Assembly (NCBI GenBank): GCA_017543725.1
Contig: JAFYFO010000244.1
Span: 1-10,280, forward strand
Source: Eubacterium sp.
Lineage (GTDB): Bacteria; Bacillota; Clostridia; Oscillospirales; Acutalibacteraceae
DNA: 10,280 nt
Direction: 5' to 3'
Of this stretch, positions 1 to 10,280 are shown piece after piece (position 1 is the first letter of the stretch; each line of letters starts with the position of its first letter). The position numbers and the translations under genes are program-made. The notes beneath the pieces are model-generated. The model had not been told where the DNA came from. It ran no database searches and saw nothing but the letters and a program-made list of their open reading frames with translations.

Positions 1-1
1 A

Positions 2-214
2 GAATCGGATGTTGATATAATGGTGCGCATAAATTGCACTCAGGAAGAACTAAAAAAGTATCGTTTTATGCTGAGCAATTTTTCAAGCGCTCTTTCAGTT
101 GAAAATGATGTAACGGTTTCTGTTGTGATTGTTGATACTCCAACATACGAAAGATATAAGCGCTATCTTCCGTTTTATGAAAATGTTGAAAGAGAGGGAT
201 TAAAAATTGCTTGA
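2..214 (+). CDS. MNT-type nucleotidyltransferase, C-terminal part (5' end outside window)
   Basis: This is the 3' part of a gene that begins upstream of the window; about 70 codons are visible. The first visible residues read ESDVDIMV, which matches the catalytic SDxD strand of minimal nucleotidyltransferases (the GSxxxxxSDxD motif of the polymerase-beta superfamily). The preceding Gly-Ser is outside the window. The tail, with a hydrophobic strand (VTVSVVIVD) and a final 'YENVEREG', is typical of small MNT proteins encoded beside HEPN partners. In characterised MNT/HEPN pairs the MNT protein is the antitoxin and neutralises the HEPN RNase, in some cases by adding nucleotides to it. The stop codon lies inside the next gene (8-base overlap), suggesting translational coupling. 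The family call is good; activity cannot be judged from a fragment. Confidence 0.8.
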   Translation, partial: ESDVDIMVRINCTQEELKKYRFMLSNFSSALSVENDVTVSVVIVDTPTYERYKRYLPFYENVEREGLKIA

Positions 215-611
215 TAAAGAAACAATAGAACTTTCAAAGAATTATTTAAAAAAAGCATTTAAAACCCTTGAAAATATTCCCAAATATATTCAATTGGATG
301 ATTATTGTGTTGCTGTCAATCGTGCATATTATGCCGCTTTTTATAGTTTAAAGGCGTTGGAAATTCTTGATAATTATGATTCGAAAAAACATTCCGGCGT
401 GATTTCGCGTTTCAGACAGCAGTATATAAAAACGGAAATATGCAGTAATAGATATTCCGATATTATCGGCAAACTTCAAGAGGCAAGAGAAATCGGAGAT
501 TATAATATTGTTGCTGAGTTTTCAATAGATGAAGCAAAAGAATTTTATGAATCCGCAAAAGATTTCGTAAATGAAATGCAGAGATTAATCAACAATAAAA
601 TTGAAAACTGA
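207..611 (+). CDS. HEPN-domain protein, UPF0332-like, probable partner of the MNT protein
   Basis: A 134-residue helical protein starting at TTG (207), with AGAGAGGG about 8 bases upstream; the start overlaps the end of the MNT gene. The core AVNRAYYAAFYSLKAL (residues 36-51), followed by KKHSGVISRF (60-69) and REIGDYN (94-100), is the signature of UPF0332-type HEPN proteins. Members of the wider HEPN clan are often metal-independent RNases with an R-x4-6-H motif. Here the equivalent segment is R94-E-I-G-D98-Y99, so the usual His is replaced by Asp, as I recall being common in UPF0332. The protein may therefore be a binding partner or non-canonical toxin rather than a proven RNase. A terminator follows directly, so the pair is the end of its operon. 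The fold call is firm; the toxin role is inferred from gene pairing. Confidence 0.8.
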   Translation: MLDKETIELSKNYLKKAFKTLENIPKYIQLDDYCVAVNRAYYAAFYSLKALEILDNYDSKKHSGVISRFRQQYIKTEICSNRYSDIIGKLQEAREIGDYNIVAEFSIDEAKEFYESAKDFVNEMQRLINNKIEN

Positions 612-619
612 CAGATTAT

Positions 620-666
620 AATAAAAACAGCGGATTTGGAATTGTTCTAAGTCCGCTGTTTTTATT
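620..666 (+). terminator. Intrinsic terminator after the MNT/HEPN pair
   Basis: An 18-base stem (620-637 with 649-666) has a single G-U wobble and an 11-base loop. The 3' arm contains GTCCGCTG followed by a run of five T. The A-rich 5' arm makes it potentially bidirectional. It separates the MNT/HEPN pair from the ylxM promoter. I see no gene between here and 871. Confidence 0.85.
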
Positions 667-785
667 GCCGTCTGCAAGATATGAAAACACGCAACTTAAA
701 TTGTGTTTGTTTTTCAATCAAAGCACTATAAATTGTGTCAATATTTTTTGCTGAAATTTTGTTGAAAAAATTATCGTTTTTATCC

Positions 786-814
786 TTGACATATGGGGCG
801 GCTTTTAGTATAAT
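786..814 (+). promoter_or_regulatory. Consensus sigma-A promoter of ylxM-ffh
   Basis: A perfect TTGACA (786-791) and a perfect TATAAT (809-814) are separated by 17 bases. Transcription should start around 821, giving a leader of about 50 bases before ylxM. A 8-bp hairpin (823-830 with 839-846) would lie at the very 5' end of this leader. Confidence 0.88.
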
Positions 815-822
815 AACAACCG

Positions 823-846
823 CTGTAAAGATGAAATGCTTTACAG
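823..846 (+). other. 5'-leader hairpin upstream of ylxM
   Basis: A perfect 8-bp inverted repeat, CTGTAAAG / CTTTACAG, with an 8-base loop. It lies a few bases downstream of the predicted transcription start and 10 bases before the AAAGGAAGGG ribosome binding site (857-866). It has no T-run, so it is not a terminator. It could stabilise the 5' end of the mRNA or be a DNA operator; this is not resolved by sequence alone. Confidence 0.5.
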
Positions 847-870
847 ACTTGAAGCGAAAGGAAGGGTATT

Positions 871-1233
871 ATGGAAAAAAATCTTGAAATATCAAATCTG
901 CTTGATTTCTATGGCGAAATGCTGACTGAAAAGCAAAGAGATTTTCTTGATTACTACTATAATGAAGACCTTTCTCTTTCCGAAATTGCAGAAAACGAGG
1001 GAATAACCCGTCAGGGAGTCCGCGATTCAATCAAAAGAGCCGAGGCTCAGATGAATGAAATGGAAAAGAAACTCGCTCTCTGCAAAAAGTTTGGCGAACT
1101 TAAAAAAGGACTTGAAGAGATAAAGGAATGTGCGGATAATATTTATCAGTATAATCTCAATCATTCTCTTTCAAGAGAGATAAATGATAATGCTGCAAAG
1201 ATTAAATCCATTGCAGACTTTTTAGGAGAGTGA
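871..1233 (+). CDS. ylxM: YlxM-family SRP-associated HTH protein (UPF0122)
   Basis: A 120-residue protein resembling region 4 of sigma factors. Residues about 20-62 (TEKQRDFLDYYY, then SLSEIAENEGITRQGVRDSI) form the helix-turn-helix typical of YlxM/UPF0122. The C-terminal half is charged and helical, probably a coiled coil. YlxM is encoded upstream of ffh in many Firmicutes and in streptococci has been linked to modulation of SRP GTPase activity. Here it is first in the transcription unit, 4 bases upstream of ffh, and that SRP gene's ribosome binding site lies within the end of ylxM. Start ATG 871 is preceded by AAAGGAAGGG (857-866). Length and context fit the family; whether it binds DNA, RNA or Ffh cannot be told from sequence. 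Confidence 0.93.
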   Translation: MEKNLEISNLLDFYGEMLTEKQRDFLDYYYNEDLSLSEIAENEGITRQGVRDSIKRAEAQMNEMEKKLALCKKFGELKKGLEEIKECADNIYQYNLNHSLSREINDNAAKIKSIADFLGE

Positions 1234-1237
1234 AATC

Positions 1238-2635
1238 TTGGCATTTGAAGGACTTAGCGAACGCCTTGAAAGTGCTTTTAAAAAACTTCGCGCCAAGGGA
1301 AAACTAACCGAGGCAGATGTTAAAGAAGCAATGCGCGAGGTTCGCCTTGCGCTTCTTGAGGCGGATGTTAACTATAAAGTTTCAAAGGAATTTACCAAAA
1401 AGGTAACCGAGCGCGCAATCGGCGCAGATGTTATGGAAGCCCTGACTCCCGGTCAGATGGTTATCAAAATCGTCAATGAAGAATTAACGGAGTTGATGGG
1501 CTCGAATGAAGCAAGGCTTGCTATTGCAAACCATCCGCCGACAATCATTATGATGTGCGGCCTTCAGGGAAGCGGTAAAACAACCCACAGCGCAAAACTT
1601 GCAAACAAACTTAAAAAAGAGGGCCACAGACCTCTCCTCGTTGCCTGCGATGTTTACCGTCCCGCGGCAATAAAGCAGCTGCAGGTTGTCGGAGAGCAGG
1701 TTGAAACTCCCGTTTTTGAAATGGGAACTGAAAATCCCGTTCACATTGCCGAAGAAGCGATTAAACACGCTAAGGATTACGGCTATGATTATGTTATAAT
1801 AGACACCGCCGGCAGACTTCATATTGATGAACAGCTTATGGCGGAATTAACAAATATCAAAGCAACCGTTCATCCCCACGAAATCCTTCTTGTTATCGAT
1901 GCTATGACGGGTCAGGACGCTGTTAATGTTGCGAAATCGTTTAACGAAACCCTCGGAATAGACGGCGTTATTTTAACAAAACTTGACGGCGACACAAGAG
2001 GCGGTGCGGCTCTTTCGGTAAGAGCGGTAACGGGCAAGCCGATTAAATTCGTCGGAACGGGCGAAAAACTTGATAACCTTGAAACCTTCTATCCTGACAG
2101 AATGGCTTCAAGAATTCTCGGAATGGGCGATGTTCTTTCATTTATTGAAAAAGCCGAAATGTCGCTCGACCAGAAAAAAGCCGAGGAACTTGAAAGAAAA
2201 CTTGCAAAAAACAAATTCGACCTCAACGATTTGCTCGACCAGTTTGAGCAACTTGAAAGAATGGGCTCGATAAAAGATACAATAAAACTCATCCCCGGAA
2301 TCGGAAAGCAGATAAAGGATGAGGATATTGATGAAAAAGCGTTTGATAAAATGAGGGCAATCATCTATTCAATGACGAAAGAGGAAAGAGCAAAGCCCGA
2401 AATAATAAACGCTTCGCGCAAGAGAAGAATTGCAGCAGGATGCGGAAAGCAGGTTGAAGATGTTAATAAACTTCTTTCCCAGTTTAAGCAGATGCAAAAA
2501 ATGTTTAAGCAATTCGGCGGCAACAAAGGACCGAAGGTCAGCAAAAAAATGCGCCGCCTGATGCAGCAAAATCCCGATATGGCTCAGAAACTTATGGGCA
2601 ATTCCCAGCAGGGCAGCAATCCATTCGGATTTTAG
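1238..2635 (+). CDS. ffh: Signal recognition particle GTPase Ffh
   Basis: A 465-residue SRP54/Ffh protein of full length. It binds 4.5S/scRNA and signal peptides of nascent membrane proteins and delivers ribosomes to the receptor FtsY. The N domain spans about residues 1-90. The G domain has GLQGSGKT (108-115, P-loop), DTAGR (189-193), TKLD (247-250) and GDTRGG. The methionine-rich M domain runs from about 310, with the RNA-binding segment SRKRRIAAGCGK (393-404) and the Met-rich tail QFKQMQKMFKQF. The usual GSG of that RNA-binding loop reads GCG here, a mild substitution. The start is TTG at 1238 with AGGAGAG (1224-1230) seven bases upstream; there is no nearer ATG giving the N domain. It is co-transcribed with ylxM (4-base gap). 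Confidence 0.98.
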   Translation: MAFEGLSERLESAFKKLRAKGKLTEADVKEAMREVRLALLEADVNYKVSKEFTKKVTERAIGADVMEALTPGQMVIKIVNEELTELMGSNEARLAIANHPPTIIMMCGLQGSGKTTHSAKLANKLKKEGHRPLLVACDVYRPAAIKQLQVVGEQVETPVFEMGTENPVHIAEEAIKHAKDYGYDYVIIDTAGRLHIDEQLMAELTNIKATVHPHEILLVIDAMTGQDAVNVAKSFNETLGIDGVILTKLDGDTRGGAALSVRAVTGKPIKFVGTGEKLDNLETFYPDRMASRILGMGDVLSFIEKAEMSLDQKKAEELERKLAKNKFDLNDLLDQFEQLERMGSIKDTIKLIPGIGKQIKDEDIDEKAFDKMRAIIYSMTKEERAKPEIINASRKRRIAAGCGKQVEDVNKLLSQFKQMQKMFKQFGGNKGPKVSKKMRRLMQQNPDMAQKLMGNSQQGSNPFGF

Positions 2636-2658
2636 GTTAAAACCAAATTCAATTTGTT

Positions 2659-2664
2659 TATAAT
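2659..2664 (+). promoter_or_regulatory. Possible -10 element ahead of rpsP
   Basis: A perfect TATAAT in the 64-base gap between ffh and rpsP. The hexamer 17 bases upstream (GTTAAA, 2636-2641) matches the -35 consensus at only three positions, so any promoter is weak. It could give rpsP-khpA extra transcription independent of ffh. Another TATAAT at 2678-2683 is too close to the ribosome binding site to be useful. Confidence 0.3.
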
Positions 2665-2699
2665 ATTTTAATTTTCATATAATTATGGAGGAAAGAAAA

Positions 2700-2942
2700 A
2701 TGGCAGTAAAAATCAGACTTCGCAGAATGGGCGCGAAAAAAGCACCTTTCTATCGTGTTGTAGTTGCAGATTCAAGATATCCCCGTGATGGTCGTTTCAT
2801 CGAGGAAATCGGAACATATAACACAATGACAGAGCCTGCTGAAATCAAAATTGATGCAGACAAGGCTAAGAAGTGGATTGAAAACGGCGCTCAGCCCACT
2901 GAGACCGTTAAGAGCATTTTCAAAAAAGAAGGCATCCTTTAA
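2700..2942 (+). CDS. rpsP: 30S ribosomal protein S16
   Basis: An 80-residue S16 with the family N terminus [19 protein letters not shown], the central [18 protein letters not shown] segment, and the C-terminal [18 protein letters not shown]16 binds 16S rRNA early in small-subunit assembly. An in-frame ATG at 2685 exists, but it overlaps the Shine-Dalgarno GGAGG (2687-2691), which sits 8 bases before ATG 2700. The 2700 start is therefore the right one and gives the universal MxxKIRL beginning. It precedes khpA by 36 bases, the standard Firmicute order. Confidence 0.98.
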
Positions 2943-2978
2943 TCCTTAACTTAAACAGGAATACAGGAGGTGTTTTCT

Positions 2979-3212
2979 TTGGAGGAATTATTAATATCCA
3001 TAACAAAAGGTTTGGTTGATAACCCAAACGAAGTTTCTATCGATATTGATGAGCCTGATGAAGAAGGCGTTGTTGTTTATCATCTCCATGTTGCCGAGGG
3101 CGATATGGGAAGAGTTATCGGTAAGCAGGGCAGAATAGCAAAAGCAATCAGAGTTGTTATGCGCGCCGCCGCAACAAGAAATAATGCAAAAATATCGGTT
3201 GAAATAGACTAA
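2979..3212 (+). CDS. khpA: KH-domain RNA-binding protein KhpA (YlqC)
   Basis: A 77-residue single KH domain protein. The binding loop GKQG (48-51) lies in MGRVIGKQGRIAKAIRVVMRAAA, as in KhpA/YlqC proteins, which pair with KhpB (Jag) and affect cell elongation and division in streptococci and related Firmicutes. The start is taken as TTG 2979, 8 bases after a perfect AGGAGG (2965-2970), giving MEELLISITKGLVDNPNEV, the family N terminus. A GTG at 2970 is in frame but overlaps the Shine-Dalgarno itself. The gene ends the ylxM-ffh-rpsP-khpA run; a strong terminator begins four bases after its stop. Confidence 0.95.
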   Translation: MEELLISITKGLVDNPNEVSIDIDEPDEEGVVVYHLHVAEGDMGRVIGKQGRIAKAIRVVMRAAATRNNAKISVEID

Positions 3213-3215
3213 TGA

Positions 3216-3243
3216 AAAACGCCCTCTTAAAGAGGGCTTTTTT
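3216..3243 (+). terminator. Intrinsic terminator after khpA
   Basis: The stem GCCCTCT (3221-3227) / AGAGGGC (3231-3237) has a TAA loop, an A-rich 5' flank and six T's (3238-3243). It should end the ribosomal/SRP transcription unit, so rimM-trmD needs its own promoter or readthrough. Confidence 0.9.
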
Positions 3244-3246
3244 CAA

Positions 3247-3427
3247 ATTACGAATTACGAGTTACGAATTACGAATTTCGGGACCTGCGGTCGGCTATTA
3301 TATAACGGAACGATGTAGGCATCGTTCCCTACAATAATTGAAAGCCGTAGGGCAAGATGCCCACATCTTTCCGAAATACAATCGTCGCTTGCGACCCGAC
3401 AACTCGGAACTCGGAACTCGCAACTAA
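3247..3427. repeat. MITE-like near-palindromic intergenic element with heptamer-repeat ends
   Basis: The element has no ORF. The left end holds four copies of a 7-base unit ATTACGA (3247-3274, third copy GTTACGA) and then ATTTCGGG. The right end holds CCCGA (3395-3399), then AACTCGG, AACTCGG, AACTCGC (3401-3421). Read in reverse complement, the right end aligns with the left over about 28 bases (CGARTTM units ending in TCGGG), so the ends are terminal inverted repeats. Inside, 3307-3332 and 3347-3372 are inverted copies matching at 22 of 26 bases. Each arm also has a small hairpin, GACC-TGC-GGTC (3282-3292) and GTCGC-TT-GCGAC (3384-3395). The whole can fold into one long branched hairpin. I infer a non-autonomous mobile or REP-like element; no target-site duplication is clear. 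Confidence 0.75.
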
Positions 3428-3457
3428 ACTACCCACTGAATTATTGGTGATTTATAT

Positions 3458-3967
3458 ATGAAACAGTTTTTAGAAATCGGAAAAGTTAATAACACCCATG
3501 GGCTCAGGGGCGAGGTTAAACTTGAAATGTGGTGCGACGGGATTGATTATATAAAGCAACTCAAAACCGTTTATCTTGATGATGAAGGGAAAAAGAGCCT
3601 GAGCCTTGTTTCAGCACGCCCTCAGAAGAATATTGCAATACTGAAATTCGGCGAAATTTCAACTATTGAAGAGGCTGAGCAACTGAAAAACAAAGTTGTT
3701 TATTGCAACAGAAACGACGCGCATATAGACGATAACTCATACTATCTTGCGGATATTATCGGCGCAAAGGTTGTTGATATTGAAACGCAGAAGGAATACG
3801 GAAAAATCGTTGATATTATGAACTACGGCTCAAGCGATATCTATGATATTGTTAAAGATAAAAAGCATTATCTCATTCCGGCAATACCCGATGTTGTTAA
3901 AGAGATAGATACGGAAAAACAAATTGTTTTAATTAAAGCGATGAAGGGACTTTTTGATGAGGATTGA
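3458..3967 (+). CDS. rimM: 16S rRNA processing / 30S maturation factor RimM
   Basis: A 169-residue RimM that helps mature the 3' domain of 16S rRNA and binds ribosomal protein S19. The N-terminal barrel begins EIGKVNNTHGLRGEVKLE (residues 6-23), with the family motif GLRGEV. The C-terminal PRC-barrel half shows YYLADIIGAKV (95-105) and YLIPAIPDVVKEID (138-151), both hallmark segments. Start ATG 3458 follows GGTGA (3446-3450), a weaker ribosome binding site than the neighbours have. The stop overlaps trmD by 11 bases, so the two are translationally coupled, as in many bacteria. Unusually, a terminator and a repeat element sit immediately upstream, and I could not identify a convincing promoter. 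Confidence 0.97.
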   Translation: MKQFLEIGKVNNTHGLRGEVKLEMWCDGIDYIKQLKTVYLDDEGKKSLSLVSARPQKNIAILKFGEISTIEEAEQLKNKVVYCNRNDAHIDDNSYYLADIIGAKVVDIETQKEYGKIVDIMNYGSSDIYDIVKDKKHYLIPAIPDVVKEIDTEKQIVLIKAMKGLFDED

Positions 3968-4688
3968 TATATTAACTCTGTTTTGCGATATGTGCAGCAG
4001 CGTACTCGGCGAAAACATAATCGGCAGAGCGAGGCAGGCGGGCAAGGTTGAAATAAACTGCGTTGATATCAGAAACTATACCAATGATAAACATCGCAGG
4101 GTTGACGATAAGCCCTACGGCGGCGGAATGGGAATGATTATGCAGGCTCAGCCGATTTATGATTGCTATCAGGCGCTATGCGAAGAAACAAAAACAAAAC
4201 CGCATCTTATATATATGACTCCACAGGGAAAAACCTTAACTCAGCAAAGGGTTAAGGAACTTGCAAAACTTGATAATATCGCAATTTTATGCGGTCATTA
4301 TGAAGGCGTTGATGAAAGAGTTATCGAGGAACTGCAGCCCGAGGAAATCTCAATCGGCGACTATGTTTTAACCGGCGGAGAACTTCCGGCTCTGATTCTT
4401 GCCGATTCAATTTCCCGAATGCTCGACGGCGTTTTGTCAAACAGCGAATGTTTTGAGGAAGAAAGCCATTTCAACGGACTTCTTGAATATCCTCAGTATA
4501 CCCATCCTGCCGTCTGGAAAAACAGGGAAGTTCCCGAAGTTCTGCTTTCGGGACATCACGAAAATGTTGATAAGTGGAGAAGGCAGCAGGCGCTGAGCCG
4601 AACTCTGAAGCGCCGTCCCGATATGCTTGAAGATGCGCAACTTACAAAAGAAGATATTGATTTTCTTGCGTCGATTGATAATGAGTAA
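3957..4688 (+). CDS. trmD: tRNA (guanine-N1-)-methyltransferase TrmD
   Basis: A 243-residue SPOUT-family enzyme that methylates G37 next to the anticodon, using S-adenosylmethionine, to prevent +1 frameshifts. Visible motifs are KPYGGGMGMIM (52-62), YMTPQGKTLTQ (86-96), LCGHYEGVDERV (111-122) and IGDYVLTGGELPAL (133-146), the trefoil-knot SAM site. R154 and GLLEYPQYTHP (174-184) follow. The residue aligned with the general-base Asp169 of the E. coli and Haemophilus enzymes is Glu169 here (E-S-H-F-N-G), and the YTRP motif reads YTHP. ATG 3957 is preferred over the adjacent TTG 3954; the ribosome binding site AGGGA lies in rimM. rplS, the frequent next gene, is missing. Confidence 0.97.
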   Translation: MRIDILTLFCDMCSSVLGENIIGRARQAGKVEINCVDIRNYTNDKHRRVDDKPYGGGMGMIMQAQPIYDCYQALCEETKTKPHLIYMTPQGKTLTQQRVKELAKLDNIAILCGHYEGVDERVIEELQPEEISIGDYVLTGGELPALILADSISRMLDGVLSNSECFEEESHFNGLLEYPQYTHPAVWKNREVPEVLLSGHHENVDKWRRQQALSRTLKRRPDMLEDAQLTKEDIDFLASIDNE

Positions 4689-4801
4689 TTAGACAAAAGT
4701 TTTTTTATTAGACTCAATTAAAAAATATGTTGATTTTGCACAAATATCGACTGTGGAATTTGTTAATTATAGATTACTCATACGAACTTGCAAAAATTCA
4801 G

Positions 4802-4829
4802 TTGACGATTAAACATTTAGTGATATAAT
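4802..4829 (+). promoter_or_regulatory. Promoter of the HPr gene
   Basis: TTGACG (4802-4807) and TATAAT (4824-4829) with a 16-base spacer. A perfect 10-base inverted repeat, ACATTTAGTG (4813-4822) and CACTAAATGT (4851-4860), places one arm in the spacer and the other about 15 bases beyond the likely transcription start. This could be a regulator site. The 110 bases between trmD and this promoter hold no gene or clear terminator. Confidence 0.75.
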
Positions 4830-4860
4830 AAAGCAGGTGAATGAAAACGGCACTAAATGT
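4813..4860. repeat. 10-bp perfect inverted repeat straddling the HPr -10
   Basis: Arms ACATTTAGTG (4813-4822) and CACTAAATGT (4851-4860) are exact complements, with 28 bases between them and arm centres 38 bases apart. They enclose the -10 hexamer and the expected start of transcription. The second arm also belongs to a tiny GCAC/GTGC hairpin (4850-4862). The layout suggests two half-sites of an operator, but no regulator is encoded nearby. Confidence 0.5.
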
Positions 4861-4910
4861 GCAATGAACACCGACACAAAAAAGAACATTCATATGAGAG
4901 GTACAGGAAA

Positions 4911-5174
4911 ATGTTCGTAAAAGATGTAACAGTAGAAAATCAGGTAGGACTTCACGCAAGACCGGCAACATTTTTCATTCAGAAAGCAAACGAATTCAAG
5001 TCATCAATCTGGGTTGAAAAGGAAGAAAGAAGAGTTAATGCAAAATCTCTTTTAGGTGTTCTTTCACTCGGCATTATGGGCGGAACCGATATCAGAATTA
5101 TTGCTGACGGTTCAGATGAAGAAGAAGCGGTTGAAGGGCTTGTTGCACTCGTAAAAAGCGGCTTCAACGAGTAA
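4911..5174 (+). CDS. ptsH: Phosphocarrier protein HPr
   Basis: An 87-residue HPr, cytoplasmic phosphate carrier between Enzyme I and the sugar-specific EIIA proteins of the PTS. VGLHARPAT (12-20) contains the active His15, and NAKSLLGVLSLGI (43-55) contains Ser46, the HPr kinase/phosphorylase target used in Firmicute carbon catabolite repression. The presence of His15 argues against the paralogue Crh. The start is ATG 4911, giving the standard length; an in-frame ATG at 4857 would add 18 hydrophilic residues not seen in the family. The gene is alone between its promoter and terminator; ptsI is not next to it, unlike the common ptsHI pair. GAACATT (4884-4890) can pair with AATGTTC (4910-4916), covering the start codon. 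Confidence 0.95.
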   Translation: MFVKDVTVENQVGLHARPATFFIQKANEFKSSIWVEKEERRVNAKSLLGVLSLGIMGGTDIRIIADGSDEEEAVEGLVALVKSGFNE

Positions 5175-5198
5175 GTCAATTCTTATTTAAACAAGCAA

Positions 5199-5237
5199 CA
5201 AGGCAGTATCATCATTTGATGGTATTGCCTTGATTTT
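5199..5237 (+). terminator. Intrinsic terminator after HPr
   Basis: A 15-bp stem (5199-5213 with 5218-5232) has two G-U wobbles and an ATTT loop, followed by ATTTTT. It ends the monocistronic HPr transcript and immediately precedes the phosphatase gene. Confidence 0.88.
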
Positions 5238-5253
5238 TAGTCAGGGGAAATAT

Positions 5254-5715
5254 ATGATAAAAATATGTTTTGTTTGCCACGGAAATATTTGCCGTTCACC
5301 AATGGCTGAGTTTATTATGAAAAGCCTTGTTGAAAAAGAGGGCAGGGCGAATGAATTTTTTATTGAATCAAAAGCAACGCATACCGATGAGATATGGAAC
5401 GGCGTAGGAAGCCATATTTATCCGCCCGCACAGAAAGAACTGAAAAGAAACGGTATTCCTTTTGACAAAAGCAAGCGCGCCGTTTTGCTTGATGAGGGCG
5501 ACTGTGATAAATATGATTTATTTATCGGAATGGATTTTGAAAACATAAGATTTATGAATAGAATTCTGGGCAAAAAAGCCGAGCCGAAAATTCATAAGCT
5601 TCTTGAATATACGGGCAGTGACGGCGATGTTTATGACCCCTGGTACAGCGATAATTTTGAGCTTGCATATAATTCAATTTATAAGGGCTGCAAAACGCTT
5701 CTTGAAACACTATAG
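5254..5715 (+). CDS. Low-molecular-weight protein-tyrosine-phosphatase
   Basis: A 153-residue LMW-PTP. The P-loop CHGNICRS (residues 8-15, the Cys-x5-Arg-Ser signature) supplies the nucleophile Cys8 and the phosphate-binding Arg14. The general acid is Asp128 in YDPWY (127-131), where many relatives have DPYY. Such enzymes dephosphorylate tyrosine on proteins (and some relatives phosphoarginine); the substrate here is unknown. Start ATG 5254 has AGGGG (5243-5247) six bases upstream; an upstream in-frame TTG at 5230 lies inside the HPr terminator and is excluded. No clear promoter of its own is visible, so it may depend on readthrough. Its stop codon lies only two bases before a palindromic repeat, the left border of the DUF559 unit. 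Confidence 0.93.
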   Translation: MIKICFVCHGNICRSPMAEFIMKSLVEKEGRANEFFIESKATHTDEIWNGVGSHIYPPAQKELKRNGIPFDKSKRAVLLDEGDCDKYDLFIGMDFENIRFMNRILGKKAEPKIHKLLEYTGSDGDVYDPWYSDNFELAYNSIYKGCKTLLETL

Positions 5716-5717
5716 CC

Positions 5718-5765
5718 AAGCCTTCCCCTTGAGGGGAAGGGGGACCGCTTGCGGTGGATGAGGTG
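5718..5765 (+). repeat. Palindromic repeat, left copy, flanking the DUF559 gene
   Basis: AAG, then a perfect 8-bp hairpin CCTTCCCC-TTGA-GGGGAAGG (5721-5740), then a small hairpin ACCGC-TT-GCGGT (5744-5755) and GGATGAGGTG (5756-5765). The first 23 bases are the exact reverse complement of 6139-6161, and the last 10 that of 6115-6124. The terminal GAGGTGG serves as ribosome binding site for the DUF559 start at 5771. Confidence 0.9.
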
Positions 5766-5770
5766 GAATA

Positions 5771-6136
5771 ATGAATAAAACAAATAATCCGAAATTAAAG
5801 CCATATGCTCAAAAACTACGCAAAGAAATGATAAAAGAGGAACGTCATTTATGGTATGATTTCTTGAAAAAGTTGCCGATTACAATTAATCGTCAAAAAG
5901 TTATCGGAAATTATATTGCTGATTTTTATTGTGCTGGTGCAAAGTTGATTATTGAACTTGACGGCTCACAGCATTATGAAGAAAAAGGCGTTCAGTCTGA
6001 TGAAAAAAGAACCGAATACTTCAATGAACTCGGCATAAGAGTTTTGAGGTATTCTAACGCTGATATTAAATATAACTTTGATGGGGTTTGTGAGGATATT
6101 CTAAAGAATATTAACACCTCATCCGTCACTTCGTGA
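5771..6136 (+). CDS. DUF559 endonuclease-domain protein (PD-(D/E)XK / Vsr-like)
   Basis: A 121-residue single-domain protein. LRKEMIKEERHLWYDFLK (17-34), RQKVIGNYIADFYC (41-54) and LIIELDGSQH (59-68), followed by KRTEYFNELGIRVLRYSN (79-96), match the DUF559 family, whose fold resembles the Vsr mismatch endonuclease. Likely metal-binding residues are Asp51 and Glu62, with Gln42/Lys43 and His68 conserved nearby. The target is unknown. The gene is bracketed by inverted copies of a palindromic repeat. The left copy supplies the GAGGTGG ribosome binding site; the right copy encodes the last seven residues (NTSSVTS) and the stop, then acts as terminator. Codon use is more A/T-rich than in uvrC or ffh, consistent with a recent arrival. 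The family call is firm; a role in moving the repeat is inference. Confidence 0.88.
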   Translation: MNKTNNPKLKPYAQKLRKEMIKEERHLWYDFLKKLPITINRQKVIGNYIADFYCAGAKLIIELDGSQHYEEKGVQSDEKRTEYFNELGIRVLRYSNADIKYNFDGVCEDILKNINTSSVTS

Positions 6137-6161
6137 CACCTTCCCCTCAAGGGGAAGGCTT
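6115..6161 (-). repeat. Palindromic repeat, right inverted copy, flanking the DUF559 gene
   Basis: This is the inverted partner of 5718-5765. In + strand order: CACCTCATCC (6115-6124), small hairpin GTCAC-TTC-GTGAC (6125-6137), and major hairpin CCTTCCCC-TCAA-GGGGAAGG (6139-6158) followed by CTT. Outer and inner blocks are identical to the left copy, whereas the small hairpin differs in sequence but keeps its fold. The DUF559 stop codon TGA (6134-6136) lies within the small hairpin. Confidence 0.9.
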
Positions 6162-6166
6162 TTTTT
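6139..6166 (+). terminator. Intrinsic terminator formed by the right repeat copy
   Basis: The 8-bp G/C-rich hairpin of the repeat (6139-6158) is followed by C and seven T's (6160-6166), a good rho-independent terminator for DUF559. The left copy has no T-run on the + strand, so only this copy would terminate in the forward direction. Confidence 0.85.
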
Positions 6167-6195
6167 AAAATAACGCTGTTTTTATAATCGTAATG

Positions 6196-6204
6196 TGTTA
6201 TAAT
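6196..6204 (+). promoter_or_regulatory. Extended -10 promoter of uvrC
   Basis: TGTTATAAT is a perfect TATAAT (6199-6204) with the TG extension. No good -35 lies 16-18 bases upstream (nearest CTGTTT), as is usual for extended -10 promoters. It lies just after the DUF559 terminator and about 30 bases before the uvrC start. Confidence 0.65.
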
Positions 6205-6234
6205 ATAGAAAAAAGGAAAAAGGGGGGAATTGCC

Positions 6235-8055
6235 TTGACTCAAAAAGAACTCAGAAAAAAAGCGATGGCTTTGCCGCTTAGTCCCGGAGTTTATATTATG
6301 AAAAACAAGGATAAGCAGATTATTTATATCGGCAAGGCAAAAGCCCTCAAAAACCGCGTTTCCTCCTATTTCGGCTCCCATTCAAATCATTCTCTCAAAG
6401 TTATAAGAATGGTTGAAAATGTTGATGATTTTGATTATATTCTCTGCGACACGGAGTTTGAGGCTCTGCTTCTTGAATGTTCGCTGATAAATCAGCATAT
6501 GCCGAAGTATAACATCCTTCTCAAAGACGATAAGGGATATAATTATATCAAAGTCACCAAAGAGGAATTTCCGCGTATTCGCGAATGTTTCAGAATGGAT
6601 GATGAAAACGCCGAGTATATCGGTCCTTTCATTTCGAATTTTTCGGTTAAAAGCGCCGTCGGCGAAACGCTGAAAATTTTTAAACTTCCAACCTGCAATA
6701 AGCAGTTTCCGAGGGATTGGGGGAAAAGCCGCCCCTGCCTCAACGGCTTTATGGGAATATGCAGCGCGCCTTGCGCCGCAAAAATCAGCAAAGCAGATTA
6801 TAAGCAGTCAATAAACGACGCCATTGCCTTCCTTAAAGGCGGCAGCACAAAATCAATCAGGGATTTAACTGCAAAAATGCAGGAATATTCCGAAAATCTT
6901 GAGTTTGAAAAAGCGGCTAAACTCAGGGATACAATAAAGGCTATCAAAAACCTTGAGGAAAAGCAGAAAGTTGTTTCAATAAATGTTCCCGAAGAAGATG
7001 TTTTCGCGCTTGTCAATTCAAATAAAAAAGCCTGTTTCGAGGTTGTCCGTTTCAGAAACGGCAGGCTGACGGACAGCGAGCATTGGCTTATAGACAGCGT
7101 TGAGGATATCGCTCAGGCGAGGGAAGAACTCATTGAAAGATATTATTCAATAAGGGGCGATGTTCCCTCAAGAGTTGCCGTTGACGGCGATATTGAAAAC
7201 GAGGAACTTCTTCTTCAGTTCCTCGAGGATAAAAGAGAAAAGAAGGTTCAGATTATCCATCCTCAGAAGGGCGAACATCTTGCAATAGTCAATCTTTGCA
7301 TAAAAAATGCAAACGAGCATCTTGCCCAGCAGCAGGGAAGGCTTGGAAAAGAAGTTGCGGCTCTTGAAGAACTCAAAAATCTTCTTGCGCTTCCCGCACC
7401 GCCCGAATATATTGAAAGTTATGATATATCCCACACCTTTGGTGCGGATAATGTTGCGGGAATGGTTGTTTTCCATAACGGAAGACCTATGAAAAGCGCC
7501 TATAAGCGCTTTGCGATAAAGGGCTTTGACGGTCAGAACGATGTTGGCTCAATGAATGAAGTTCTTGAAAGAAGATTCAGGCATTATTATGAAGACGAAG
7601 AGGGAAGCACCTTCAAAATTCTTCCCGATTTGATTCTGCTTGACGGCGGTCAGCCCCAGGTTAACGCGGTTTTGCCCGTTATTGAAAAAATGAATCTGAG
7701 CGTTCCCGTTTTCGGTATGGTTAAGGACAGTAAACACAGAACGCGCGCTATCGCCTTCGGCGGCGGAGAAATTGAAATCAATTCCCACCGAAGCGCTTTC
7801 ACCCTTGTTTCAAACATTCAGGAGGAAGTTCACCGCTTTGCGATAACCTATCACAGAAAAAAGCATAAAAACAGTTCTTTTTCCTCAGGGCTTCTTAAAA
7901 TTGAGGGAATCGGCGAGAAAAAAGCAAAGGCGCTTCTCAAAGAATTCAAAACCGTTTCGGCGATTAAATCGGCGAGTGTTGAACAACTCGCAGAGGTTGC
8001 TTCAATAACAAAAAAGAATGCACAAGATATAGTGGATTATTATAAAAATAATTAA
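6235..8055 (+). CDS. uvrC: Excinuclease ABC subunit UvrC
   Basis: A 606-residue UvrC, which cuts damaged DNA on both sides of the lesion after UvrB loading. The N-terminal GIY-YIG nuclease has GVY (18-20), YIG (31-33), Arg41 and Glu81. Four cysteines, C154, C168, C176 and C180 (RPC, GICSAPC), match the cluster reported to hold an Fe-S centre in UvrC. The UVR domain that binds UvrB lies near 205-240 (LEFEKAAKLRDTI). The RNase H-like nuclease has Asp397 (YDISH), Asp470 (LLDGGQPQ) and HRFAI (533-537). A helix-hairpin-helix region closes the protein (about 550-600). The start is TTG 6235, seven bases after AGGGGGG (6221-6227); an ATG at 6193 overlaps the promoter and is rejected. No uvrA or uvrB is in the window. 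Confidence 0.97.
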   Translation: MTQKELRKKAMALPLSPGVYIMKNKDKQIIYIGKAKALKNRVSSYFGSHSNHSLKVIRMVENVDDFDYILCDTEFEALLLECSLINQHMPKYNILLKDDKGYNYIKVTKEEFPRIRECFRMDDENAEYIGPFISNFSVKSAVGETLKIFKLPTCNKQFPRDWGKSRPCLNGFMGICSAPCAAKISKADYKQSINDAIAFLKGGSTKSIRDLTAKMQEYSENLEFEKAAKLRDTIKAIKNLEEKQKVVSINVPEEDVFALVNSNKKACFEVVRFRNGRLTDSEHWLIDSVEDIAQAREELIERYYSIRGDVPSRVAVDGDIENEELLLQFLEDKREKKVQIIHPQKGEHLAIVNLCIKNANEHLAQQQGRLGKEVAALEELKNLLALPAPPEYIESYDISHTFGADNVAGMVVFHNGRPMKSAYKRFAIKGFDGQNDVGSMNEVLERRFRHYYEDEEGSTFKILPDLILLDGGQPQVNAVLPVIEKMNLSVPVFGMVKDSKHRTRAIAFGGGEIEINSHRSAFTLVSNIQEEVHRFAITYHRKKHKNSSFSSGLLKIEGIGEKKAKALLKEFKTVSAIKSASVEQLAEVASITKKNAQDIVDYYKNN

Positions 8056-8066
8056 ATATATCGCCC

Positions 8067-8095
8067 TTGACTAAAAGGGCTGTGCTTTGTATAAT
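8067..8095 (+). promoter_or_regulatory. Promoter upstream of rsmD
   Basis: TTGACT (8067-8072) and TATAAT (8090-8095) with a 17-base spacer, in the 71-base gap after uvrC. A 6-bp inverted repeat GCCCTT/AAGGGC (8063-8080) overlaps the -35. It probably drives rsmD, coaD and the coiled-coil gene up to the terminator at 9736. Confidence 0.82.
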
Positions 8096-8126
8096 ATTAT
8101 AGTATAAAATTTAAGGACAAGCATCT

Positions 8127-8663
8127 ATGAGAGTTATAACAGGAAGCGCAAGAGGCAGAAAACTCATAACCCTTGAAGGTGAGGATATAACTCGCCCCAC
8201 CTCCCAGAGCCTGAAAGAAGCGATTTTTTCTTCAATTCAGTTTGAAATCGAGGGCAAAAGAATTCTTGATTTGTTTGCCGGCAGCGGCGCTCTCGGAATA
8301 GAAGCGCTGTCCCGCGGAGCCGTTTTCTGCACCTTTGTTGAAAACAATAAAAAGGCATATCAGATTGTTGAGCAGAATATCAGAAACTGCAATATGGAAG
8401 ATGTGTCGAGCCTTGTGTTGTGCGACGCGGTTTCTTTCCTCAGAAGAAACGGCAAATTCGATATCGCGTTTCTCGACCCGCCGTATAAAAAGGGGCTCAT
8501 TGATGAATGTCTTGAATTGCTTTTTGAGCATATGAGCGATGAGGGAATAGTCATCTGCGAAACTTCAAAAGATGAAAAACTTCCCGAATCCGCAGGCGGA
8601 TTTTCAATTTCAAAAGAAAAGAAATACGGCAAAACGAAGTTGACTTATTATCGACGCAAATGA
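8127..8663 (+). CDS. rsmD: 16S rRNA (guanine(966)-N2)-methyltransferase RsmD
   Basis: A 178-residue Rossmann-fold methyltransferase of the RsmD family, which methylates G966 of 16S rRNA in the 30S subunit. It begins with the family N terminus MRVITGSARGRKL (1-13). The SAM-binding motif I DLFAGSGALGIEALSRGA (48-65) and the catalytic FLDPPYKKG (115-123) with DPPY are clear; the acidic post-I strand FVENN (70-74) binds SAM ribose. Start ATG 8127 has AAGGA (8113-8117) nine bases upstream. coaD follows after 13 bases; rsmD-coaD is a long-conserved pair in Firmicutes, and the two share the promoter at 8067. Confidence 0.95.
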   Translation: MRVITGSARGRKLITLEGEDITRPTSQSLKEAIFSSIQFEIEGKRILDLFAGSGALGIEALSRGAVFCTFVENNKKAYQIVEQNIRNCNMEDVSSLVLCDAVSFLRRNGKFDIAFLDPPYKKGLIDECLELLFEHMSDEGIVICETSKDEKLPESAGGFSISKEKKYGKTKLTYYRRK

Positions 8664-8676
8664 AAGGTAATCTGAT

Positions 8677-9162
8677 ATGAAAAAAGCAATCTGCCCCGGA
8701 AGTTTCGACCCTGTAACATTGGGGCATATTGATATTATCGAGCGCGCAGCCGATATATTTGATGAAGTTGTTGTTTTGGTAATGAGCAACAGAACAAAAA
8801 AAGCATCTCTTTTCACAATTGAAGAAAGAATATCGCTTTTAAGGCGGTGTCTGAAAAAAGAAAATGTGAAAATTGATACATATAACGGTCTTCTTGTTGA
8901 CTATGCAAGGCAGGAGGAAGCCGTTGCGATTGTTAAAGGTCTGAGGGCGATGAGTGATTTTGATTACGAATTCCAGCAGGCGTTAACCAATAAATCTCTT
9001 TATCCCGAATGTGAAACCGTTTTCCTCTGCGCAAGAGGGGATAATATGTTTCTTTCAAGCAGTATGGTTAAAGAGGTTTGCACCCTTGGCGGCGACATCA
9101 GTTCGTTTGTTCCGCAAGAAATAGCAGATGATATTTATAAAAGATGTAAAGGAGATAAATAA
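8677..9162 (+). CDS. coaD: Phosphopantetheine adenylyltransferase
   Basis: A 161-residue PPAT, which transfers AMP from ATP to 4'-phosphopantetheine to give dephospho-CoA, the penultimate step of CoA synthesis. The nucleotidyltransferase signature PGSFDPVTLGH (7-17) holds the TxGH motif with His17. IVKGLRAMSDFDYEFQQALTNKSL (85-108) and LSSSMVKEV (126-134, the ISSSxVKE motif) complete the active site. Length is standard for the hexameric bacterial enzyme. Start ATG 8677 follows AAAGGT (8663-8668), which overlaps the rsmD stop. The downstream coiled-coil gene starts one base after its stop, with its ribosome binding site inside coaD. Confidence 0.97.
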   Translation: MKKAICPGSFDPVTLGHIDIIERAADIFDEVVVLVMSNRTKKASLFTIEERISLLRRCLKKENVKIDTYNGLLVDYARQEEAVAIVKGLRAMSDFDYEFQQALTNKSLYPECETVFLCARGDNMFLSSSMVKEVCTLGGDISSFVPQEIADDIYKRCKGDK

Positions 9163-9163
9163 A

Positions 9164-9724
9164 ATGACCAATACCGATATTTTACTTGAAGACCTTGAAG
9201 ATGTTCTCGATGATGCAACCTCAATTCCTTTTTCAAAAAAGCAGGCAGTTGATGTTGAAAAAATCAAAACTATTATTGAGGATATCAGACTCAACACTCC
9301 CCAGGAAACAAAGCAGGCTAAAGCAATTGTTGATTCAAGAAACACAATTCTTGAAGAGGCAAAAAAAGAAGCCGCGGATATAATCAAACAGGCTCAGGCA
9401 GAAGCAAGAGAACTTGTTGCAAGAGATGAAATAACAAAAACTGCTCAGGCAGAAGCGGCAGACATTATTTCAAACGCAAACGAGCAGGGCAAGCAGATGA
9501 TAACAGAGGCTCAGAATCAGGCTTCCGAAATCCTCGGCAACGCAACAACTCAGGCAAATGAGATGGTAACTTCCGCTCAGAATAAGTCAAGAGGAATGCT
9601 CAAGGCTGTTAATGATTATGCGGATAACACCCTTCTTTCAATCGACGATTCGCTTTATAAGGCGCTCAGCGATGTCAGAAGAATCCGTCAAGGAATCTCA
9701 AACGCACAGAATAAGAAAGACTAA
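9164..9724 (+). CDS. Hendecad-repeat coiled-coil protein downstream of coaD (function unknown)
   Basis: A 186-residue soluble, Ala/Gln/Glu-rich protein with no signal peptide or membrane segment. After an acidic N terminus (about 1-45), residues 70-152 consist of roughly seven 11-residue units with the pattern [A/G]-x-[D/E/Q]-[I/M/L]-[I/V/L]-x-x-A-x-x-x, interrupted once by six residues (92-97). Hendecads form slightly right-handed coiled coils, as in the b subunit/peripheral stalk of ATP synthases. Database names such as 'ATPase subunit H-like' for such proteins probably reflect this composition rather than function. A DivIVA-like scaffold is another possibility. Start ATG 9164 follows AAAGGAG (9148-9154); an in-frame ATG at 9128 lies inside coaD and lacks a good site. 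Tight linkage to coaD looks like co-expression only. Confidence 0.8.
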   Translation: MTNTDILLEDLEDVLDDATSIPFSKKQAVDVEKIKTIIEDIRLNTPQETKQAKAIVDSRNTILEEAKKEAADIIKQAQAEARELVARDEITKTAQAEAADIISNANEQGKQMITEAQNQASEILGNATTQANEMVTSAQNKSRGMLKAVNDYADNTLLSIDDSLYKALSDVRRIRQGISNAQNKKD

Positions 9725-9735
9725 ATCAGACGTTG

Positions 9736-9762
9736 AAAGGGCTGCCGATGGCGGCTCTTTTT
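9736..9762 (+). terminator. Intrinsic terminator after the rsmD-coaD-coiled-coil operon
   Basis: The stem AAAGGGCTGCC (9736-9746) / GGCGGCTCTTT (9750-9760) has a GAT loop and two G-U wobbles and runs into a T tract (9758-9762). Confidence 0.85.
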
Positions 9763-9765
9763 ATT

Positions 9766-9870
9766 AATTAAGAATTAAGAATTTCGGGGCGCAGCTTTGA
9801 TGCGCCGAAGATTTTGTATTTGTTTCATTTATCAGATTTGTAGGGGGGTGACGTCCGCACCGCCTTTCGT
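9766..9870. repeat. Degenerate copy of the 3247-3427 repeat family
   Basis: Two 7-base units AATTAAG (9766-9779) lead into AATTTCGGGG (9780-9789), just as ATTACGA units lead into ATTTCGGG at 3275-3282. A side hairpin GGCGCA...TGCGCC (9788-9806) follows, then CGAAGATTTTGTATTT, which matches the reverse complement of 3373-3383 and neighbours (CGATTGTATTTC). Further on, TTGTAGGGGGG (about 9838-9848) resembles the GTAGGG start of the inner repeat of the first copy. No matching right terminal inverted repeat is seen, so the copy is truncated or decayed. The right boundary is approximate. Confidence 0.55.
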
Positions 9871-9920
9871 AAGGAAGACAAGGTTTAAATCGTCAGAACC
9901 TTCTGCGTGATTGAAATATA

Positions 9921-9949
9921 TTGACAAGTAAACTTGGCGACGCTATAAT
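9921..9949 (+). promoter_or_regulatory. Consensus sigma-A promoter of the membrane-protein gene
   Basis: A perfect TTGACA (9921-9926) and a perfect TATAAT (9944-9949) with a 17-base spacer. So strong a promoter, overlapped by the twin boxes described separately, points to tight repression. Confidence 0.88.
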
Positions 9950-9969
9950 GAGATTGCAAAGTAAACTTG
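9925..9969. promoter_or_regulatory. Twin operator-like boxes around the promoter
   Basis: AAGTAAACTTG occurs twice, at 9926-9936 (within the -35/spacer) and 9959-9969 (just downstream of the transcription start), 33 bases apart, about three helical turns. Each box is itself a dyad (CAAGT-AA-ACTTG for the first). In addition, TTGACAAGT (9921-9929) and ACTTGTCAA (9965-9973) are exact inverted repeats. This is the expected layout for a dimeric HTH (XRE-type) repressor. The regulator is not in the window and may be encoded just downstream. Confidence 0.65.
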
Positions 9970-9985
9970 TCAAAGGGGCGATATA

Positions 9986-10280
9986 ATGGATAAAGACGAA
10001 ATTCTTGAAAAAAGCAGAAGTGAAAGCATTGGTTATAGTGACGAAAGAGATAAAGATATAAAAATAAAGTCATATCGTTGGGGCTTTGCTGCTATGGGTA
10101 TTGTGTGCATTGTTCTTATGATAGTTAAAGACAGTTTTTCATTTCTTTTACCGTATATATCAGGGCTTGCAGCGTTAGAAGTTTATGAAGCATTTCGCAG
10201 AAAGAAAATCTTAGATATCATTTTGGCTGTTGTTGCAGTAATTATGGCGGTTGCTTCATTTTGCGTTTTGTTTTGTGTAA
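9986..10280 (+). CDS. Small multi-pass membrane protein, DUF6442-like (3' end outside window)
   Basis: An open frame runs from ATG 9986 to the window end, with 98 codons visible and no stop. AAAGGGG (9972-9978) lies seven bases upstream. The N terminus MDKDEILEKSRSE followed by a charged stretch, then hydrophobic segments at about 33-47 (GFAAMGIVCIVLMIV), 51-65 and 75-98, indicates a cytosolic head with three membrane helices. The opening 'M-x-K-x-E-I-L-E-K-S-R' and this topology resemble DUF6442-type proteins, which I recall being encoded beside XRE-family regulators in Clostridia. The family name is from memory and tentative; function is unknown. Expression should be controlled by the promoter at 9921 and its twin boxes. 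Confidence 0.7.
   Translation, partial: MDKDEILEKSRSESIGYSDERDKDIKIKSYRWGFAAMGIVCIVLMIVKDSFSFLLPYISGLAALEVYEAFRRKKILDIILAVVAVIMAVASFCVLFCV

Follow-up and report, generated by a model that had tools for sequence, protein, structure and literature searches.

Inverted triplex-motif repeats around a DUF559 nuclease gene in Eubacterium and other bacteria: a candidate minimal mobile element

In a stretch of 10,280 nucleotides from Eubacterium sp. (assembly GCA_017543725.1, contig JAFYFO010000244.1, positions 1 to 10,280), hereafter the window, a small gene is enclosed by inverted palindromic repeats, which raises the question of whether the nuclease that it encodes and the repeats at its borders belong together as a mobile unit. 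The longest perfect inverted pair reported in the window joins 5718-5740 and 6139-6161, which are exact reverse complements over 23 nt, as a sequence-only reading of the locus had stated; simple arithmetic gives an expectation of about 1e-6 for such pairs in 10 kb of random sequence. Each repeat has three parts, namely an outer hairpin, a second hairpin of different sequence and a conserved tail that faces the gene, and from sequence and fold the parts can be placed as follows. On the left (plus strand), the outer hairpin at 5721-5740, with pyrimidine arm CCTTCCCC, a loop and purine arm GGGGAAGG, is followed by the second hairpin in loop 2, GGGACCGCTTGCGGT (5741-5755), and by the purine-rich tail GGATGAGGTG (5756-5765), the proposed third strand, for which covariation speaks as well. 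On the right (minus strand), the tail, CACCTCATCC on the plus strand, lies at 6115-6124 and overlaps the 3' end of the gene, and its reverse complementarity to the left tail, also claimed before, is confirmed by the sequence. The second hairpin on this side (GTCACTTCGTGACA on the plus strand, 6125-6138) contains the stop codon of the gene (6134-6136), and the outer hairpin (6139-6158), followed by CTTTTTTT with its T run, may, judging by eye, double as a terminator.

The enclosed gene (5771-6136, plus strand, 121 aa) stands between a gene of the low molecular weight protein tyrosine phosphatase family (5254-5715, plus strand, PF01451) and a gene at 6235-8055 (plus strand) that we take from its sequence to be uvrC; the two neighbours are 519 nt apart. 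The unit does sit directly against the phosphatase stop, which ends at 5715, two bases ahead of the inverted pair. Such repeats also adjoin G000:C48, the genome's second DUF559 gene. Elsewhere in the window, a HEPN-domain protein (207-611, PF05168) directly follows a partial upstream frame, a candidate for a HEPN/nucleotidyltransferase-like pair, and a different short direct repeat (TTACGAATTACGAATTTCGGG and kin) is found at 3241-3284 and 9761-9790, as well as in L121 and L078; this type of repeat recurs in intergenic gaps of the window's genus, sometimes in tandem.

The assignment of the enclosed protein to DUF559 (PF04480) is upheld by Pfam with an E-value of 3.7e-30 and 104.4 bits, against a curated cut-off of 20.6. 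The only other Pfam match of this protein is MTES_1575, below its own cut-off, and Pfam finds no HUH/Y1 tyrosine transposase domain in it. Residues E24, D51, E62, D64, H68 and D77 are invariant in a 19-row alignment, and D64 is near-invariant in one of 35 rows. An AF2 model (pLDDT 86, pTM 0.80) was matched by Foldseek to NGO0050 (3hrl, E 3e-5) and to the catalytic domain of the homing endonuclease I-Bth0305I (3r3p, E 1.1e-4, TM-score 0.81 by target), and to Vsr itself (1cw0 and 1vsr) only with E-values of 0.13 and 0.25, below significance. Model and alignment give the protein a PD-(D/E)XK/Vsr-type fold with an acidic core, and the Vsr-type fold suggested earlier appears to hold through these relatives. 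I-Bth0305I itself is presumably one of the EDxHD/Vsr-like homing endonucleases. To our knowledge, the DUF559, YcjD, NGO0050 and VsrA proteins, with which the window protein shares its family, are known only as predicted nucleases. As side observations, one DUF559 domain with flanking repeats (L020, G068:C2) lies inside a 799-aa open frame that by eye starts like a DNA methyltransferase, and five small DUF559 proteins (P0166, P0167, P0184, P0200 and P0203) have 'primosomal protein N prime' as their source name, a hint of DUF559 units in or beside priA.

DUF559 is present in 42 of the 98 genomes of the window's genus and order, and its genes are enriched for the repeat. A detector that looks for the whole plan, from pyrimidine arm over loop, purine arm and gap to mirror tail, was used to compare the 58 unique DUF559 genes scored in the window's order (all Bacillota) with 200 control genes, taken from Bacillota regions only, and with a set from other lineages, the best 80 of 482 relatives in a one-genome-per-species collection, which by title are mostly Pseudomonadota with some Desulfobacterota and others. 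The plan was found on both flanks of 35 of the 58 genes and of 59 of the 80, against none of the 200 controls, so that the enrichment at DUF559 over unrelated genes on which the mobile-unit reading had been made to depend is present; on at least one flank it was found at 54 of 58, 80 of 80 and 25 of 200, respectively. Among the two-sided cases, both tails point toward the gene in 33 of 35 and 52 of 59. A flank score, which takes the 250 nt on either side of a gene and records their best inverted match, reached a threshold of 15 at 44 of 55 DUF559 genes in the window's order (three of the 58 lie at contig ends), compared with 3 of 244 further genes from the 10-20-kb regions around them, and at 60 of 78 compared with 3 of 301 in the other lineages, where the 78 leave out L206 (masked N) and L173 (contig end), both of which are included in the 80-gene plan count. 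None of the three controls over the threshold in the set of 244 overlaps DUF559, and one of them, in L074, lies about 300 nt from a DUF559 gene. Weak or partial PF04480 matches in G003, G005:C14, G038, G048, G057, G059:C22, G060 and G089 stand outside all counts. Since the same arrangement recurs around DUF559 in several bacterial groups, the nuclease is likely the partner of a widespread repeat.

Certain records count against a mobile unit. Among named plasmid and phage records, only 5 of 12 DUF559 loci reach the inverted-flank threshold of 15, in Deinococcus (between paaD and paaZ), Sphingomonas (between sufB and sufC), Azospirillum lipoferum and two faecal phage contigs, in one of which (L154) the inverted match departs from the triplex plan. 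Photobacterium, A. brasilense, N. gonorrhoeae, two E. coli records, Sinorhizobium and Synechocystis (12.5) fall below it; by eye, the N. gonorrhoeae gene has the motif on both sides in the same direction. Repeats are also found in genomes without detected DUF559, with 17 copies in G052, 7 in G047 and 6 in G032, which likewise speaks against the unit as the vehicle of the repeats.

The repeats follow a common plan, in which an outer pyrimidine/purine hairpin is followed by a loop, occupied in the window by the second hairpin, and by a purine tail toward the gene. Loop 2 measures 14-15 nt in the window repeat and has a median length of 16-21 nt in the window's genus, and the second hairpin varies in sequence among copies, with a stem of at least 4 pairs in 57 of the 60 type-A copies that have a C:G outer pair. 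Many Pseudomonadota repeats at DUF559 read CCCTCTCCC-loop-GGGAGAGGG-TTA-GGGTGAGGG and kin; the two forms are tied together because four Pseudomonadota loci (L223, L200, L213 and L180) also have a second hairpin.

The tail covaries with the stem. In 171 copies from the window's genus and order, which belong to four repeat families with different arms, a C:G outer pair goes with a tail G in 114 of 114 and a G:C pair with a tail T in 55 of 56 (one further copy has a mismatched stem pair), and these copies are related, so they are not independent events. The purine-type triplex permits both G on G:C and T on C:G as triples. The covariation is what a triple-strand fold would give and indicates that the tail can enter into base triples with the hairpin. 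T:A pairs in 219 inward motifs meet A (283) or T (139) and rarely G or C (6 and 4), of which only the excess of T is informative because that detector favours mirror identity. The covariation test was used in place of the mirror-tail statistic, which alone is weak: at a level of at least 7/8, mirror tails exceed direct-repeat tails by 50 to 37 of 104 and by 128 to 106 of 143 flanks, a modest gain that is partly explained by the many arms that are their own mirror. The triplex may form in cells, although footprinting by Holder et al. revealed no stable triplex in vivo (PMC4666352), a point against this reading.

Protein clade matches repeat type, most clearly for type A. In the tree of the 58 proteins, built from 104 columns and with many forks left open, the 18 genes that carry type-A repeats all fall into a single clade (SH-aLRT 99), and the type-A labels require one change against a shuffled mean of 15.8, with none of 500 shuffles as low. 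All repeat labels together require 15 changes against 32.7 (0 of 200 as low); type B is scattered (6 against 16.1), and type C is not clustered on the protein tree (6 against 6.7, with 120 of 500 as low). The labels of L017, L024 and L026 were set by hand, and the first end was used where the ends differed. The match cannot be put down to the host genome alone, because at least six genomes (G031, G004, G066, G096, G062 and G013) hold at least two DUF559 lineages with different repeat types. Across the 60 genus genomes, with clade lists typed by hand from the same tree, solitary type-A copies are commoner where clade A is present (7 of 11 against 8 of 49, p 0.003) and do not track clade B (p 0.42). 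Type-B copies track their own lineage (10 of 13 against 16 of 47, p 0.007) and clade A as well (9 of 11 against 17 of 49, p 0.006), so that the specificity of repeat and enzyme is half shown at the level of genomes.

Solitary repeats, expected by the sequence-only reading as non-autonomous copies, do occur, both as single and as paired gene-less copies. A strict type-A pattern yields 123 copies in 18 of the 60 genus genomes, and the reversed pattern has no match in these 60. Thirty type-A loci were examined, seven at DUF559 and 23 gene-free; 10 of the 23 have an inverted, inward-facing partner after a spacer of 25-58 nt, and these are the ends of the unit without its gene. Among 20 host genomes of other lineages, 18 contain the triplex pattern; a count by eye of the close pairs listed for G108, one of these, gave 14, all facing inward. 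Orientation elsewhere argues against mobile units, as 2 of the 3 close pairs listed in G104 face outward and many in G109 are back to back. Upstream of the DUF559 gene in L043, the type-B repeat is seen in three tandem copies with a 74-nt period.

Genomes with an empty site, which a mobile unit had been expected to leave, were found at several places. Among 30 phosphatase loci fetched, including that of the window, uvrC adjoins in five, and in the four that are relatives 36-90 nt separate phosphatase and uvrC, a gap that lacks DUF559 and, as judged by eye, the repeat. A DUF559 unit upstream of the presumed folE in G002 is absent in G039. The gap between the presumed gyrB and gyrA (like folE, named from sequence) holds a unit in five species, from two protein lineages, and none in G039; both neighbours are seen in L043, L047 and L048 and one in L042 and L076, which lie at contig or locus ends. 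Units from different DUF559 lineages seem to have landed in this gap repeatedly.

The cleanest empty-site case is an operon joint in Sphingopyxis, the genus of L226, between an E2 acyltransferase gene and a dihydrolipoamide dehydrogenase-type gene (PF00198, PF07992). The joint is empty (4-5 nt) in 12 of 20 sampled regions, which were picked for short and middle gaps and not at random. Elsewhere it holds a type 1 unit of about 490 nt (eight loci, L226, L273-L276 and L278-L280), a type 2 unit of about 524 nt (five loci, L281-L284 and L286) or a third type (L309); between types the DUF559 proteins share 42-58% identity, with the second and third nearest to each other. In the remaining sampled regions, L309 has the third type, L310 has a 1-nt gap with a poor right match and L311 is not resolved; other inserts of 212-335 nt, without DUF559 or repeat, were seen at the joint in L304-L308. 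The 150-nt flanks are 86-97% identical to those of L226 in filled and 84-95% in empty genomes, which makes the two about equally close relatives. By eye, no target-site duplication is visible at the joint, where the ends may have decayed. Fixed vertical inheritance is not what is seen here, given three DUF559 types at one joint beside empty genomes; the empty sites record presence and absence only and do not separate gain from loss, which weighs against the mobile-unit reading.

Other candidate sites were less clean. L032 and L046, from two species and 98.8% identical over 518 nt, were rejected as a case of exact ends because of a second shared block and an unrelated long palindrome. In Sphingomonas, the match is contiguous in G185 and G142, with short gaps elsewhere. 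At least 80% of a sapF-ycjD-fabI query is present in 3362 of 5426 E. coli genomes, and E. coli was set aside as a strain-level empty site, as three of the remaining genomes are not clean and have a TetR/efflux region beside fabI, identified as eefRABCD (PMC12817139). In the E. coli sapF-fabI region (L157-L161), ycjD with the triplex motif and eefRABCD are alternatives at one place. E. coli ycjD has one intact motif on one side only, which counts against a mobile unit, and with this one-sided motif the locus looks decayed.

In view of the arrangement, its specificity to DUF559, the match of clade and repeat, the covariation of tail and stem, the gene-less pairs and the empty sites, we consider it probable that the unit is a minimal mobile element, in which two inverted repeats of the intrastrand-triplex type enclose a DUF559 nuclease with the repeat as its cognate DNA. 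DUF559 may recognise, cut or spread the repeat, as had been proposed. The purine tail could lie back in the groove of the hairpin, and the repeat would fold once single-stranded, for instance on the lagging strand. The nuclease would then nick or cut at the folded ends, and host repair would copy or paste the unit, or a gene-less pair served by the enzyme in trans, at another intergenic site. The non-autonomous descendants of the unit, comparable to REPINs beside RAYTs, would then be the gene-less pairs and the single repeats.

The gene could also have arrived alone, if DUF559 cuts alleles that consist of a gene-less repeat pair and repair copies the gene in, the repeats spreading by other means. 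A homing endonuclease is indeed among the nearest solved relatives, the gene-less pairs share their ends with the unit, and the two clades in the gyrB-gyrA gap and the three types at the Sphingopyxis joint look as if the gene were exchanged in place. Against this, whole units appear to come and go, and the empty sites have no repeat (4-5 nt at the Sphingopyxis joint, 36-90 nt between phosphatase and uvrC). The lack of a repeat there makes it likelier that the unit moves as a whole than that the gene homes into an existing pair, and we regard homing as rather unlikely. That DUF559 is frequent cargo of repeats moved by another enzyme, for example one like RAYT or IS200, seems very improbable: some genomes do have repeats without detected DUF559, and we know of no case in which the PD-(D/E)XK (Vsr/homing-type) class alone acts as a transposase, but other genes are not bracketed (0 of 200) and cargo would not match the repeat type by protein clade, as it does for type A.

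A role in upkeep rather than movement would make DUF559 a repair or anti-recombination nuclease that polices structure-forming repeats, its own gene being kept between repeats for transcription termination or autoregulation. The Vsr-like fold and the resemblance, by eye, of the right repeat and its T run to an intrinsic terminator would suit such a role, as would two reports in which Caulobacter VsrA, a DUF559 protein, is tied to cytosine methylation and DNA damage (PMC12907096) and the motif to genome instability (Holder et al., PMC4666352). On its own, however, it leaves unexplained the several copies per genome in many unrelated gene neighbourhoods, the empty sites, the placement inside operons and the three units at one joint, and it is judged quite unlikely.

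If the minimal mobile element is taken further, the units might represent a new class of prokaryotic mobile DNA, that is, single-gene elements in several phyla whose stand-alone nuclease of Vsr/homing fold reads a DNA triple strand at their ends, and which would be where the triplex-motif repeats in E. coli, Neisseria, cyanobacteria, many Pseudomonadota and Clostridia come from, unnoticed until now; this is a tentative proposal, to which we would give slightly less than even chances. Triple-stranded DNA would also be a new type of target for a nuclease to recognise. More broadly, the DUF559 nuclease family appears to be the matched partner of triplex-motif repeats in many lineages, which, if true, would explain one repeat class and one large protein family at once.

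Among known systems, the repeats may be compared with the intrastrand triplex motif (TM), which we take to be also the BoxC repeat of E. coli. TM, or TM_ECO, formerly PIT, was described by Holder et al. in 2015, and that paper counts 23 copies in MG1655, with no mobility gene near any of them and with inverted pairs at 5 of 18 sites (PMC4666352). E. coli K-12 therefore carries both these copies and the DUF559 gene ycjD, and one exact TM copy lies between ycjD and fabI, in all likelihood, judging from its sequence and its place on the map, no. 9 in Table 1 of Holder et al. (PMC4666352). The likeness consists in the pyrimidine arm, purine arm and mirror purine tail, the dispersed intergenic copies and the inverted pairs, and many Pseudomonadota repeats at DUF559 belong to the published TM sequence family. 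The window repeat, with arms CCTTCCCC/GGGGAAGG and a loop 2 of 14-15 nt, lies outside the published TM consensus, CCCTCNCCC-N3-6-GGGNGAGGG-N3-GGGNGAGGG, and loop 2 in the window's genus exceeds the 1-6 nt loops that Holder et al. searched; furthermore, a gene partner was found here, whereas none is reported in their paper (PMC4666352). CGTC-tagged REPs are similar in being orphan palindromic repeats, common in Alphaproteobacteria and described as lacking a dedicated transposase by Di Nocera et al. 2013 (PMC3733652); DUF559 was rejected as their missing partner (CCGTC beside the tail), as a CGTC-type core lies within 400 nt at only 6 of 80 genes.

With the homing endonuclease I-Bth0305I (3r3p), the likeness is one of catalytic-domain fold. 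DUF559 differs from the EDxHD/Vsr-like homing endonucleases as a stand-alone small domain, with no intron. Its empty sites also contain no copy of the proposed recognition repeat and, provided that this repeat is what the enzyme recognises, do not have the uncut site that homing calls for. The earlier comparison with REPs and their RAYTs stands for the layout and fails for membership. Like REP/REPIN-RAYT (TnpA-REP) systems, the unit has a single nuclease gene flanked by palindromic repeats in inverted orientation, its gene-less inverted pairs are dispersed over the genome, and its enzyme lineage matches the repeat type. Unlike them, it has a PD-(D/E)XK nuclease of another superfamily in place of HUH/Y1 and a repeat of another plan, whose tail faces the gene and covaries with the stem; the GTAG foot or a variant is absent beside the window hairpin, where the tail is GGATGAGGTG. 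The repeat class and the protein family were each already known, and their link is new within the open-access literature searched, in which no printed connection of DUF559 to repeats was found. In layout, it resembles the REPIN/RAYT systems, but its enzyme is unrelated to theirs and its repeat folds differently; proof of movement and of triplex reading would set it apart as a separate class.
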